Positions 29,665 to 63,484 of a stretch of 64,000 bases of DNA are shown here, one piece after another; within the stretch, counting starts at the first letter, position 1, and every line of letters starts with the position of its first letter. This DNA is from Hufsiella arboris (GTDB lineage: Bacteria; Bacteroidota; Bacteroidia; Sphingobacteriales; Sphingobacteriaceae), in assembly GCF_009834875.1 (NCBI RefSeq), contig NZ_WVHT01000001.1, positions 434,001 to 498,000 on the forward strand, read 5' to 3'. The translations under genes and the position numbers were made by a program. The notes beneath the pieces are model-generated. The model was not told the DNA's origin. It searched no databases and saw only the letters and a list, made by a program, of their open reading frames with translations.

Positions 29665-29958
29665 CTAAGGTTTTTTTACAGCCTTTGTCGACTTAGTTGT
29701 AGTGGTCGTTTTTTTATTCTCTTTGTAACGCATATCTGGTGTGCCGTCTTTTTTCTTCGGACCAGCAGTAGTGGTGGTCGAACTCGTTTTATTTTCTTTG
29801 TAACGTTTGTCTGGCGTACCGTCGCTTTTTAAATGTGTGGTAGCCGATTTGGTTGTTTTTGTAGTGGTTGTCTTTTTAGCTGGCGTTGTTTGAGCAACAG
29901 CGAATAGCGAGCTCATTGAAATTGCTGCTATTGCAACGATTGACATTAATTTTTTCAT
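29665..29958 (-). CDS. Small exported protein with two DGTPDxRYKENK repeats
   Basis: 97 residues. A signal peptide ends near residue 22 (LFAVAQ). The mature part is made of Lys/Thr-rich low-complexity linkers around two copies of a 12-residue motif, DGTPDKRYKENK (first copy) and DGTPDMRYKENK (second copy). The protein is very basic. I recall similar motifs in small Sphingobacteriaceae proteins but know no function. It is a single gene, convergent with the metallo-hydrolase gene and sharing its terminator. Confidence 0.75.
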   Translation of the reverse strand: MKKLMSIVAIAAISMSSLFAVAQTTPAKKTTTTKTTKSATTHLKSDGTPDKRYKENKTSSTTTTAGPKKKDGTPDMRYKENKKTTTTTKSTKAVKKP

Positions 29959-58226: not shown

Positions 58227-58445
58227 GCTTGATCAACAAAATCTTTTCTGGCAAGTTTTGCCGGATTCCTAAACAGTTTGACAGGCCGCCTAACCGGTGA
58301 AAAGTTCAAATTAGATTTTCGCCGACATGAAAAGCTCGTTTACCGAAATCTTTCCTTCGCTAGCCCAAAAGTCATTTACAAGCCTTGAAATCTGAGGTAG
58401 TTTTGAGTCAACAAATAACAAAAACTAAACTAAAACATACTCAAA

Positions 58446-58826
58446 ATGAAAACTTTAAGCATCATCACCGCAGCAATTCTGATAACAATTTCTACAGCAA
58501 GCAGAGCTGACGAAAAAAACAAAGCTTTTGGAAAAAATGCGAAACACCGTTTATCTGTTGCCACGGCTCCTATGATTTGGGGTAATCCTAACGAAAAGGC
58601 GCCTGAAGAGTTAAGATTAATGGCTGTAAAAGTAGCGCCAATGACTTATGGAAATCCTGACGAAAAAGCGCCTGAGGATTTAAGACTCATGACAGTAAAA
58701 GTTGCTCCAATGGTTTATGGAAATCCAAATGAAGAAGCACCTGAAGACTTAAGATTGCAAACAGTTCCGGTTGCTCCAATGGTTTACGGAAACCCTAATG
58801 ACGCTGCACCTTCGGATCTTAAATAA
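58446..58826 (+). CDS. Small exported protein made of four 23-residue repeats
   Basis: 126 residues. A signal peptide ends near residue 21 (ISTASRA). After a short basic linker (KNKAFGKNAKHR) the rest of the protein is four tandem units of 23 residues with consensus VAPMxYGNPxEKAPEDLRLMTVK; the last is cut short after APSDLK. No Cys; Pro, Tyr/Trp, Asn and acidic residues are fixed in place. No known family comes to mind. The next gene begins 33 bases later on the same strand but has no obvious link. Confidence 0.8.
   Translation: MKTLSIITAAILITISTASRADEKNKAFGKNAKHRLSVATAPMIWGNPNEKAPEELRLMAVKVAPMTYGNPDEKAPEDLRLMTVKVAPMVYGNPNEEAPEDLRLQTVPVAPMVYGNPNDAAPSDLK
58566..58826 (+). repeat. Four in-frame 69-bp tandem repeats
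   Basis: The codon for Ala in each AP-M motif begins at 58566, 58635, 58704 and 58773, an exact 69-base period. The DNA copies differ at many third positions while the protein is kept, so selection acts on the peptide rather than recent duplication. Confidence 0.85.
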
Positions 58827-59922: not shown

Positions 59923-60038
59923 ATCGCTAAAATAACCGATGTTTTCTATCATGACTATTTCTGGTAACTATTTTTTCGAAGACTCTTCTGCCGGTCGCTA
60001 TTGAAATCACCGTTCACTCTAAATAGCTAAATTTGTTT

Positions 60039-61094
60039 ATGGACTTTAACAGCCGCGAATATTATTCTAGTCATAGCAAGTTAAGTTTTATCGGTTATCA
60101 TGGCCAGCAAAAGCTAAAGGATGCGAAAGTGTTGGTTATTGGAGCCGGCGGACTTGGCTGCCCTTGTCTTTTAAATTTAACCACCAGCGGAATCGGAACT
60201 ATTGGTATCGCAGACTTTGATATTGTCAGCATTTCAAACTTGCACCGGCAAACTCTTTTCACCATCAATGATTCCGGCCGACTTAAAACGGGGGCAGCTA
60301 TCGAGCGGTTAAAATCTCATAATCCTGAAACACTTTTTGTTAACCATTCGATCATTGTCGGGCAGGATAACGTTCTTGATCTGATCGATCCGTACGACAT
60401 TGTTGTTGATTGTACCGATAATTTTCTTGCCAGGTACCTGATCAACGATGCATGTGTTTATATGGATAAGCCACTGGTTTATGGAGCCATTCATCAGGCG
60501 GAAGGCCACTTAACGGTTTTCAATTATGAAAATTCTGGAACATTAAGGTGCTTGTTTCCCGAGCCGGAGCATGGAGCAATTCAAAGTTGTGCTGACATTG
60601 GCGCCTACAATGTTACCACCGCGCTTATTGGAACGATGATGGCAAACGAGACACTGAAGATTGCATTGGAAAATCCCAACGTTCTGTCAGGTACGCTGCT
60701 AACTTTAGATTCGTTAGACGGTACATTCACTAAAATAAATTATAAAAAAAATAATGAAAGTTTAACGGAAAGTATCAAACGCTTTTCCGAAAATCCTGCG
60801 CTATTTGTTCTTTCGAATGAAGCTTTCACGTCAAAGCTTAAAAACACAAGTTACCAACTCATCGATGTCCGCACGGAGACCGAACACGATACATTTAACC
60901 TAGGCGGCACCAATATTCCCTTCGATGATTTAATATCTGGCAAAGTTTTAGATTTCGACCCTAAAGCCACCGCGATTTTTTACTGCCAACAGGGATTCAG
61001 AAGCTACGAAGCCGTTAAATTCTTACGAAAACTCGGATTTAATAAAACGTTCTGTCTCCGCGGTTCAATGTCAAACTGGATAAACATCATTTAA
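60039..61094 (+). CDS. MoeB/ThiF-family adenylyltransferase fused to a rhodanese domain
   Basis: 351 residues. The E1-like domain (1-245) adenylates the C-terminus of a small sulfur carrier such as MoaD or ThiS: VIGAGGLGCPCLLNLTTSGI, IADFDIVSISNLHRQ, DCTDNFLARYLINDAC, and the region LRCLFPEPEHGAIQSCADIG. The rhodanese domain (260-351) carries the active Cys loop CQQGFRS. The usual MoeB zinc cysteines are largely missing: one is seen where CxxC should be and the second pair is absent. The ATG at 60039 beats a TTG at 60033. First gene of the molybdenum-cofactor run. Confidence 0.92.
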   Translation: MDFNSREYYSSHSKLSFIGYHGQQKLKDAKVLVIGAGGLGCPCLLNLTTSGIGTIGIADFDIVSISNLHRQTLFTINDSGRLKTGAAIERLKSHNPETLFVNHSIIVGQDNVLDLIDPYDIVVDCTDNFLARYLINDACVYMDKPLVYGAIHQAEGHLTVFNYENSGTLRCLFPEPEHGAIQSCADIGAYNVTTALIGTMMANETLKIALENPNVLSGTLLTLDSLDGTFTKINYKKNNESLTESIKRFSENPALFVLSNEAFTSKLKNTSYQLIDVRTETEHDTFNLGGTNIPFDDLISGKVLDFDPKATAIFYCQQGFRSYEAVKFLRKLGFNKTFCLRGSMSNWINII

Positions 61095-61194
61095 GTCTAA
61101 CAAGAGTACCAAACAACGATGTTTAAATTCCGCGGATGATAAAACTATATAACGACATGGCATAAGCCGTAAAAAGCACGTAATTTAGCGTTGC

Positions 61195-62025
61195 ATGTTA
61201 CAGGTAAGCCAGTTGTTTATTTATCCGATTAAGTCACTGGGCGGGATTTCGGTTTCCGAAGCTGAAATAACGGACCGCGGCTTTAAGCACGACCGCCGCT
61301 GGATGCTGATTGATAAGAATGATCGATTTTTATCTCAGCGTGAGTTTGCTCAAATGGCGCTATTGACTGTAGAAATAAACGATAACGAGTTGGTTGTTTC
61401 CCATAAGCATGAGTTACAAAAGAAACTAAACATTCCAATCGTACCGAAAACAAACCAAAGTATTTTTGCTAGCGTGTGGGATGATCAGTTTGAAACCATC
61501 CGTGTCGACCCTGAAGCGGATAAATGGTTTTCCATGATGCTTGGCTTTGATTGCAGATTGGTTTATATGCCCGATGAGACACATCGCGCTGTCGATGAGC
61601 GTTATGCTATTAACTACGATGAAATCACGTCTCTTTCTGATGCTTACCCGTTTTTGCTGATCAGCGAAGCCTCGCTCGAAGATCTCAATAATAAGCTGGC
61701 TGAAAAATTACCCATGGACCGTTTCAGGCCCAACATTGTGATCAAAGGCGCATTCCCATTTCAGGAAGACGAAATGGAAGAGTTTTCAATTAACGGTATT
61801 TCATTTTTTGGCGTAAAGCCATGCGCCCGCTGCATTGTTACCACCATCAATCAGGACAATGCTCAGAAAGGGAAGGAGCCTTTGAAGACACTTTCGTCTT
61901 ACCGGTTAAAAGGTCATAAAATTCTTTTTGGCCAAAATCTTCTACATGGCGGACTGGGAAAGATTGCCGTTGCCGATCAAATCGCCATTGTCAAAGAAAA
62001 AGAACCCGTTTTGCCTAACATATGA
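61195..62025 (+). CDS. MOSC-domain protein (YcbX-like)
   Basis: 276 residues: an N-terminal beta-barrel (LFIYPIKSLGGISVSEAEIT, FKHDRRWMLIDKNDRFLSQR) followed by a MOSC domain (DRFRPNIVIKG, FFGVKPCARCIVTTI with the conserved Cys, and SYRLKGHKILFGQNLLH). MOSC proteins carry or insert the sulfurated molybdenum cofactor and reduce N-hydroxylated compounds in their mARC/YcbX form. It sits in the molybdenum-cofactor gene set, whose next gene it overlaps by four bases (ATGA). Confidence 0.92.
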   Translation: MLQVSQLFIYPIKSLGGISVSEAEITDRGFKHDRRWMLIDKNDRFLSQREFAQMALLTVEINDNELVVSHKHELQKKLNIPIVPKTNQSIFASVWDDQFETIRVDPEADKWFSMMLGFDCRLVYMPDETHRAVDERYAINYDEITSLSDAYPFLLISEASLEDLNNKLAEKLPMDRFRPNIVIKGAFPFQEDEMEEFSINGISFFGVKPCARCIVTTINQDNAQKGKEPLKTLSSYRLKGHKILFGQNLLHGGLGKIAVADQIAIVKEKEPVLPNI

Positions 62026-62534
62026 AGATATACGTTTTATTCATCCTGCTACTCATAAGCCATTTCGCCTTTAGCCAGGATCATCCCGAAGGGAAAATCA
62101 GTGAAAAGCTTGCCATCTCTGGATTGGTCAACAAGCAATTATCGCTGACATTATCTGATCTGAAAGAATTAAAAACGGTGGAACTAAAAAATGTTAAGAT
62201 TATCGGAAAAGGCGGTGACGTTAAACGGACCATCCCATCTCTAAAAGGATATTTGTTAAAAGACATTATTAACATGGCAGGCATTGCCGAGCCAAATTTT
62301 AAAGAGAACGGCATGATTTATTTCATCGCTTCTGCTACCGACGATTACAACGTTTTATGCTCTTGGTCAGAGGTGTTTAATTCAGCAAGTGACCAGGTTT
62401 TTGTAGTCACCGAAGAGGACGGGCAACCGTTGAACAAAGACGGAAAATTTGCGCTTCTCTGCCTGAAAGATAAAATCAATGGCTTACGTTTTGTAAAATG
62501 GCTGAACAGGATTGAGGTCAAAAAGGCTAATTAA
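62022..62534 (+). CDS. Exported molybdopterin-binding-domain protein
   Basis: 170 residues with a signal peptide (ending FAFSQ). The rest resembles the oxidoreductase molybdopterin-binding domain of the sulfite oxidase family, in short form: ISGLVNKQLSLTLSDLKEL, IPSLKGYLLKDIINMAGI, NVLCSWSEVFNSASDQVFVV with one Cys (LCSW) that could be the molybdenum ligand, and RFVKWLNRIEV at the end. It overlaps the MOSC gene by four bases at its start, and its stop shares one base with moaCB. Catalytic status uncertain. Confidence 0.8.
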   Translation: MKIYVLFILLLISHFAFSQDHPEGKISEKLAISGLVNKQLSLTLSDLKELKTVELKNVKIIGKGGDVKRTIPSLKGYLLKDIINMAGIAEPNFKENGMIYFIASATDDYNVLCSWSEVFNSASDQVFVVTEEDGQPLNKDGKFALLCLKDKINGLRFVKWLNRIEVKKAN

Positions 62535-63484
62535 TGCGGGATATTACTCATAAAACCAATACTCTCAGAACCGCGAAAGCCACCGGCATCGTTTTCTGTT
62601 CGGCAGAAACAATCCGTCTTATACAAAACAACGAGTTACCCAAAGGCAACCTTTTTGATGTCGCCAGGGCAGCCGGATTTATCGGAGCAAAACTAACGCC
62701 TCAGCTCCTGCCCCATTGCCATCCCGTAGCAATTGACGGTATGGATATTCAGTTTAACTTCCTGGAAAGTGAGGCCCATTCGGGAGTTTTTCCAGAGATT
62801 GATTTTCAAAGATCAGGTATAGTAATCACTGCTGACACTAAATCGATCGGGCGAACCGGGATAGAAATTGAAACGCTTACGGCTGTTTCCATCGCAGCGC
62901 TTGAGCTTTATGACATGTTGAAGCCCGTTGATAAAATCCTGGAAATTGGCCATATTAAGCTTCTCGACAAGAAAGGCGGTAAAAGCGATCGACAGAAATT
63001 TCTCGACAATATGCCAACCTGCGCTGTTTTAGTCTGCTCTGATTCAACAGCGAAAGGCGAACGTGAAGATAAAAGCGGAAAAATTATCAGCCAGATGCTT
63101 AAAGATGTCAATGCACAGGTTGTTCATTACGCAGTTGTCCCTGACGAGAAGGAAAAAATACAGCAGTATATCAAAGACTGGGTTTCGGAAGACATTCATT
63201 TCATTTTCACAACTGGCGGCACCGGCCTTGGGCCAAGGGATAACACCATCAGCGCGGTTAAGGAAATTCTTGAGCGAGATGCTGACGGTATTACGGAAGC
63301 TATGCGAAGTTATGGTCAGCAACGTACGCCGTTTGCGATGATGAGCCGCGGCGTTGCCGGTTCTATTGCGGAAACATTAATAGTTACACTTCCGGGAAGT
63401 TCAGATGGCGCCAGGGAATCACTGGAAGCAATCCTTCCGGCAATTTTTCACGCGAGAAAGATGATGAAAGGAGGCGGCCATTGA
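62534..63484 (+). CDS. MoaC-Mog fusion, molybdenum cofactor biosynthesis
   Basis: A 316-residue fusion. Residues 1-150 are MoaC (makes cyclic pyranopterin monophosphate): AKATGIVFCS, KLTPQLLPHCHPVAIDGM, VSIAALELYDMLKPVDK and IKLLDKKGGKSD. Residues 155-316 are Mog/MoaB-like (adenylates molybdopterin): CAVLVCSDSTAKGEREDKSG, FTTGGTGLGPRDNTISAV and LPGSSDGARESLEAILP. The fusion is known as MoaCB in several phyla. Its stop overlaps the start of moeA. Confidence 0.95.
   Translation: MRDITHKTNTLRTAKATGIVFCSAETIRLIQNNELPKGNLFDVARAAGFIGAKLTPQLLPHCHPVAIDGMDIQFNFLESEAHSGVFPEIDFQRSGIVITADTKSIGRTGIEIETLTAVSIAALELYDMLKPVDKILEIGHIKLLDKKGGKSDRQKFLDNMPTCAVLVCSDSTAKGEREDKSGKIISQMLKDVNAQVVHYAVVPDEKEKIQQYIKDWVSEDIHFIFTTGGTGLGPRDNTISAVKEILERDADGITEAMRSYGQQRTPFAMMSRGVAGSIAETLIVTLPGSSDGARESLEAILPAIFHARKMMKGGGH

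Follow-up and report, generated by a model that had tools for sequence, protein, structure and literature searches.

Gene Layout and Repeat Array

The window analysed here is a 64,000-nucleotide stretch of the Hufsiella arboris genome (contig NZ_WVHT01000001.1, positions 434,001 to 498,000, forward strand). The subject is a gene at 58446-58826 (+) encoding a secreted repeat protein of 126 amino acids, together with a conserved promoter at 58341-58415. Neither the promoter nor two paralogs of the gene, one of them ∼17 kb off, had been remarked on in an earlier note made from the sequence of this DNA. The open reading frame (ORF) starts with ATG. The protein begins with a signal peptide, MKTLSIITAAILITISTASRA (58446-58508, +), with cleavage after A21 judged by eye and a hydrophobic N-terminus common to relatives; by eye, no lipobox and no sorting domain were noted. 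A polar linker read from the sequence, DEKNKAFGKNAKHRLSVAT (58509-58565, +), leads into the repeat units.

Four units built around Pro-Met-x-Tyr-Gly-Asn-Pro follow on the plus strand: unit 1, APMIWGNPNEKAPEELRLMAVKV (58566-58634); unit 2, APMTYGNPDEKAPEDLRLMTVKV (58635-58703); unit 3, APMVYGNPNEEAPEDLRLQTVPV (58704-58772); and unit 4, APMVYGNPNDAAPSDLK (58773-58823), which is cut short at 17 residues. They start at residues 41, 64, 87 and 110, giving spacings of 23, 23 and 23. Tandem Repeats Finder reported an array at 58566-58798 with a period of 69, 3.4 copies, 78% matches and a score of 236; the sole other array that it found in the window has a 14-bp unit, 1.9 copies and a score of 54. The earlier note had described four exact 23-residue repeats. 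The 23-residue, 69-bp period is exact, but the copies differ from one another at 4-7 residues (5, 7 and 5 of 23 among the three full units).

Selection on the Repeat Units

Base differences were counted in two non-overlapping unit pairs (1-2 and 3-4), and 18 of the 28 fell at the third base of a codon (p = 0.0008, one-sided binomial test against 1/3). The ratio of non-synonymous to synonymous substitution (dN/dS) between units was ∼0.14-0.30, a rough estimate because synonymous sites are near saturation; pair 1-3 was not computable. Three orthologs were compared from Daejeonella, the genus of the named relatives (Sphingobacteriaceae, Bacteroidota). Their dN/dS values were 0.20, 0.14 and 0.20 for the mature part and 0.37, 0.48 and 0.96 for the signal peptide, which is under weaker constraint. 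Of what had been claimed from the letters alone, the third-position drift was upheld between units, and purifying selection on the protein between units and between orthologs.

Repeat number was also compared, and it differs by one 28-residue unit among the three Daejeonella orthologs: one of them lacks 28 residues corresponding to one whole unit, in register. Copy number therefore changes while the unit is kept. The loss is seen cleanly between loci L058 and L056, which represent one Daejeonella locus, as a natural change of repeat number.

Repeat Motif and Predicted Structure

Across the family, 92 units from 33 relatives were picked by motif search. These give the unit consensus [VIF]-x-x-[AP]-x-[FM]-x-[WY]-G-[NSD]-P-x-[DE]; the spacer behind it varies. 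Two positions outside the picking motif are also conserved: position -8 is V, I, F or L in 91/92 units and position +4 is acidic in 81/92. Where neighbouring units were both caught, unit spacing across the family is 20-29 residues, compared with 23 in the window protein. By a crude count, made with a script-derived signal-peptide cut ∼3 residues off the annotated cut, the mature part is net negative in 33/35 relatives and close to neutral (-1) in the window protein. No cysteine is present in 27/35 relatives.

Two AlphaFold runs from shallow alignments (16 and 10 rows) gave mostly coil and no confident fold, with a mean predicted local distance difference test score (pLDDT) of 59.1 and 49.8 and a predicted template modelling score (pTM) of 0.17 and 0.14. 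Of the repeated binding or structural unit suggested earlier, the repeated unit stands, since it recurs across relatives as a defined motif, while the two models offer no confident fold for it.

Alternatively, the repeats could be structural, stacked as a solenoid or a curli-like fibre and so reinforcing the surface. Curli-type repeat proteins are secreted and have a repeat period in the low twenties, two traits that the window protein shares, and the 20-29 residue period is nearly constant within many members of the family. In one relative a short helix per repeat was modelled at low confidence. The models in which the beta-solenoid of a curli-like fibre could be sought are low-confidence ones from shallow alignments. 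Against stacking, the two models reached only the pTM values above. Each unit of the window protein contains Pro, the residue pattern differs from that of curli and has none of its Asn/Gln/Ser-richness, and spacers are irregular in several members. No sign of a dedicated secretion gene was seen among the close neighbours. A structural fibre is considered unlikely.

Less likely still is a precursor from which the repeats are cut as separate short peptides, serving as signals or antimicrobials. Such a precursor would have tandem units with basic residues between the cores, copy number changing in register and a secretion signal, all of which are seen here. The unit position counts, on the other hand, showed no conserved cleavage site, dibasic or of another kind: the basic position met most often, 14 residues past the motif G, is Lys in 37/78 units, and by eye some members have none. 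No modification enzyme was noticed by eye beside the gene.

Family Membership and Distribution

The window protein was compared with Pfam (best match DUF1414, E 0.036), NCBIfam (best match SbmC, E 1.8e-4 at 21.7 bits, the cut-off being 179) and PHROGs (best E 0.01) with no credible match, and a 16-row profile gave no match to PDB sequences at E up to 1. When 25 relatives were submitted to Pfam one by one, matches were scattered (best E 5.9e-4) and no family recurred in more than three members. The sub-threshold library matches were judged to be chance because the matched stretches are short, disagree between relatives and lie far under the cut-offs. The proposal of no known family was supported in these libraries, with nothing above a curated cut-off, and as far as sequence comparison goes the repeat protein is a member of an undescribed family.

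The Hufsiella arboris genome has three paralogs: the window gene, a copy ∼17 kb downstream of it with 56% identity, and a copy with 54% identity on contig 34. Several family members occur in Daejeonella lutea DSM 22385. Matches at E 0.001 or better were found in 16/201 Sphingobacteriaceae genomes and 5/25 genera, a patchy and multi-copy distribution, and all 29 of 29 matched loci have the same layout by eye. A profile search across Bacteroidota, as suggested in the earlier note, was run on 296 genomes drawn from the phylum; the unit recurs in relatives, and only two of these genomes had a match, both Sphingobacteriaceae. A second genome of the same genus held no family member, and the plasmid and phage collections gave no match to the window protein.

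A test for conserved neighbours found no operon partner among the loci listed. Members lie at unrelated places, two Daejeonella loci excepted. One of these is common to six genomes, with the same genes on both sides in five and a contig end in the sixth; the second shared locus is also among the loci listed. An ORF with near-perfect (LIFFxDxTDxEFTSSGLPQxISGAGIVR) repeats was observed at L067 9908-10435 (+), beside one family member. These repeats also occur in clusters from two other genomes and may be repeated non-coding DNA.

Such a patchy spread, with no member in the other genome examined from the same genus, might be expected of an ordinary secreted repeat protein that is specific to its lineage and has no defined role. 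Purifying selection and a dedicated conserved promoter both speak against this explanation, which is regarded as very improbable.

Promoter Element

A rigid element of ∼75 bp (58341-58415) precedes the gene and combines a LytTR-type direct repeat, spaced by 21 bp, with a Bacteroidota -7 box. Promoter alignment placed the first half-site, ACCGAAATC, at 58342-58350 (+) and the second, GCCCAAAAG, at 58363-58371 (+), together forming a probable site for a LytTR-type regulator. The -33 element is positioned at 58374-58377 (+), ∼20 bp from the -7 box; it reads ATTT here, and most relatives have ATT or ATA. The -7 box itself, TAGTTTTG (58398-58405, +), was also placed by promoter alignment and corresponds to the Bacteroidota consensus TAnnTTTG, as given in the available text of PMC9723704. 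A conserved GAGTCAACAAA around the expected transcription start (58405-58415, +) was delimited by genome pattern search.

The spacing is fixed across promoters. CCG stands 55 bp before the -7 box in 32/35 repeat-family genes and in 14/14 genes of NTF2-like proteins. All 42 of 42 promoters with TAnnTTTGA have CC at -34/-33 and T at -23 relative to the -7 box. When 45 promoters were compared with themselves at 51 offsets, 21 bp ranked top with 4.51 of 9 positions, the next offset giving 3.22. An inverted repeat around -33 had been considered and was dropped for the 21-bp direct repeat after this offset test. Likewise, the tail GATTCAACAAA had been taken as the whole conserved element and was replaced once the promoter alignment showed a longer element of fixed spacing.

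The core pattern TAnnTTTGA(N)TCAACAA has three matches in the whole Hufsiella arboris genome, each before one paralog, and none in the second genome of the genus. Over 11 genomes it has 13 matches, 10 before family members, two before NTF2-like genes and one elsewhere; read backwards, it has two matches in the same 11 genomes. The outlying match (G016:C1:596190-596206, L113) precedes an Lrp/AsnC-like gene and was judged by eye to be chance.

The arrangement resembles LytTR regulons. Known LytTR sites are direct repeats, for example ACCACTTAT, 12 bp, ACCGCTTAT, that lie directly ahead of the promoter and in many cases serve autoregulation, according to the available text of PMC6193735. In both cases direct repeats of 9 bp that begin with ACC/GCC are separated by 12 bp, giving a 21-bp period, and are placed just upstream of the core promoter and also before a LytTR-encoding operon (available parts of PMC6193735 and PMC4227749); in the window two short direct repeats with this period do lie upstream of the core promoter. 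The systems differ in that the promoter here has Bacteroidota -33/-7 elements, and that the second half-site is ∼2 bp from -33 rather than ∼10 bp from -35, as in the parts available of those sources. A promoter of housekeeping-sigma type is predicted to drive the gene, with the direct repeat immediately ahead of the -33 region.

With a matrix derived from 90 sites in other genomes, 863,107 bases (18%) of the Hufsiella arboris genome were scanned, and the same bases were searched for LiaF, DUF4342, PspC, TM2 and LytTR. The window promoter scored 50.9 and the paralog promoters 43.3 and 35.3. The next best place scored -3.3 and the reversed-sequence control -2.9; the training sites have a lowest score of 28.3 and a median of 54.3. 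With an earlier matrix from 41 promoters the window scored 58.9 and the control -24.4, and the two paralogs, near 30, fell under the lowest training score of 42.9.

Genes Preceded by the Element in Relatives

A pattern for the downstream half of the element was searched in 399 Sphingobacteriaceae genomes. At least 108 of the 399 matched, and the reversed control gave at least 14 matches. Genes were read behind 40 chosen matches and later behind 65 further matches listed, which yielded 139 distinct pattern sites in the sequence examined. The CCG of the upstream half-site, which is outside the search pattern, was present at 95. These 95 sites precede 25 repeat-family genes, 27 NTF2-like genes (PF12893), 27 LiaF-TM genes, 11 DUF4342-like genes and two PspC genes, with three before none, so that 92/95 stand before one of five gene classes. 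Among the 44 sites without CCG, one precedes a TM2 gene (a sixth class) and 43 precede none. The association of CCG with gene class has a Fisher p of 4e-31 over the 139 sites.

The classes were named after the first 40 loci, and many of the repeat and NTF2-like loci came from protein similarity searches. The test was repeated on the later-fetched loci only (54 distinct sites), where 21/22 sites with CCG and 0/32 without it were in the classes (p 4e-14). This is the cleaner test, because the classes were fixed beforehand and the loci from protein searches are left aside. On sample proteins Pfam confirmed LiaF-TM, PspC, TM2 and one DUF4342; the shorter DUF4342-like kind scored 24.4 bits against the Pfam cut-off of 25.

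Co-regulation with LiaF or PspC, as would be expected of a component of the Lia/Psp systems, is indicated in relatives by the shared element. Fourteen stretches were fetched with 12-14 kb, and eight of them hold a LiaF gene behind the element. At five of these eight (G405, G012, G379, G037 and G165) LiaF is followed by a LytS-type histidine kinase of the PHFLFN type and a LytTR-type response regulator, and in two of the five a second LiaF-type gene precedes the kinase and regulator. In these relatives the element thus stands before the operon of the regulator, as in LytTR regulons. Pfam recognised LytTR and receiver domains in both regulators submitted and His_kinase (PF06580) in the one kinase submitted.

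The same distribution could have arisen by cassette reuse, in which recombination placed copies of one block, made up of promoter, leader and signal peptide, in front of mature parts that are unrelated. The shared promoter would then record common descent and say little about present function. Block reuse is possible because the leader of paralog 2 resembles those of NTF2-like genes of another genus more: its signal-peptide DNA, compared with three genes alone, is 71% and 67% identical to two such genes and 44% identical to the NTF2-like gene of its own genome. Between -200 and -80 the first two genes reached 43-48% identity; the third reached 57%, with just 49 bases aligned. Paralogs 2 and 3 are also matched by an NTF2-like profile, with E 1.5e-7 and 2e-5 respectively; the signal peptide presumably accounts for these matches. 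However, the LiaF, DUF4342-like and PspC genes have the element without a signal-peptide cassette, and half-site spacing is fixed over wide divergence, which requires selection. Cassette reuse is rated as rather unlikely to be the explanation; it and co-regulation can both hold at once.

Proposed Role and Comparison with Known Systems

For the role of the protein, the promoter is more telling than the protein itself. The favoured reading, to which a probability of about 0.6 is assigned, is that the repeat protein acts as a secreted effector in an envelope-stress response of Lia/Psp-like kind under LytTR control. The element points to a regulatory link with envelope-stress genes, and since the gene carries the control element of those genes in relatives, the repeat protein probably helps to protect the cell surface. 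Upon envelope damage a LytTR regulator would bind the direct repeat and turn on the whole gene set, including its own operon. The repeat protein would be exported by Sec and then be soluble in the periplasm or outside. There, four short W/Y-G-N/S/D-P-acidic motifs on a flexible chain might bind one kind of partner many times, be it an envelope protein, a cationic attacker or the damaged envelope itself. Units may be gained or lost in register, altering how many motifs there are, with each motif kept by selection.

Several observations weigh against this role. The window protein is without a feature that itself points to envelope protection, and it is only weakly acidic (-1). Absence of a fold is weak evidence of disorder because the AlphaFold alignments were shallow. 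Three of 35 family genes are without an aligned element, and three of the eight LiaF loci (G065, G020 and G040) are without an adjacent kinase and regulator, G065 having another kinase-regulator pair a few kb upstream. Within the 863 kb of Hufsiella arboris covered, no LiaF or DUF4342 gene was found and the sole PspC gene is without the element. The LytTR regulator there (C1:299132-299869) is a weak relative, also without the element, and the pair that it forms with a kinase (C1:299132-300953) is not beside LiaF. A cognate regulator was therefore not found in that portion of the genome. The NTF2-like gene of Hufsiella arboris has a different promoter.

One TM2 gene in the same 863 kb is also without the element. 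NTF2-like genes outside the regulon (L125, C2:136069-136494, -; L126; L132) share another upstream pattern, GTAAC ... CGTCTATT, which resembles an extracytoplasmic-function (ECF) sigma promoter.

Lia/Psp systems (LiaF-TM PF22570, PspC PF04024, LiaFSR) are alike in that the promoter is common to LiaF-TM and PspC genes of relatives and that several of the relatives' LiaF genes adjoin a two-component system. They are unlike in that the available text of PMC11237479 and PMC9239133 names no secreted repeat protein among their components, and in that the regulator here is of LytTR type whereas LiaR has a winged helix-turn-helix (PMC11237479, available text). LytTR occurs with LiaI-LiaF-TM in Firmicutes according to the same portion of that source; the LytTR-LiaF link described here is in Sphingobacteriaceae. 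The secreted NTF2-like, or Putative lumazine-binding, proteins (PF12893) have the same promoter and, in a subset of genomes, a similar signal peptide, but their mature part is a globular NTF2-like domain and is unrelated to the tandem repeat.

A more specific version of the favoured reading, held as a tentative possibility, is a secreted shield. The LytTR regulon would make flexible, mostly acidic repeat proteins that coat the cell or soak up an attacking agent, tuned by the number of repeat units and gene copies, with one promoter keeping the copies in step. Neither a secreted repeat effector class nor a Sphingobacteriaceae LytTR regulon was found in the literature searched.

If the link holds, a protein of unknown function acquires a testable role and a regulator type can be named, because a precise promoter ties the gene to envelope-stress genes. 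A putative LytTR regulon spanning Sphingobacteriaceae also emerges, with two kinds of secreted proteins among its products; in contrast, the Psp/Lia reviews PMC11237479 and PMC9239133 treat membrane and cytoplasmic parts in the text available.

Other Genes in the Window

At 29665-29958 (-) the window encodes another small secreted protein, rich in Lys and Thr, in which (K)xDGTPDxRYKENK occurs in two near copies. Its match to the repeat-family profile is weak and non-significant (E 0.59). Downstream of the repeat protein gene, at 60033-63484 (+), a run of genes resembles those for molybdenum-cofactor use and synthesis. Named by eye from their translations, these encode a ThiF/MoeB-rhodanese protein, a MOSC protein, a molybdopterin-binding-like protein and a MoaC-MogA fusion.
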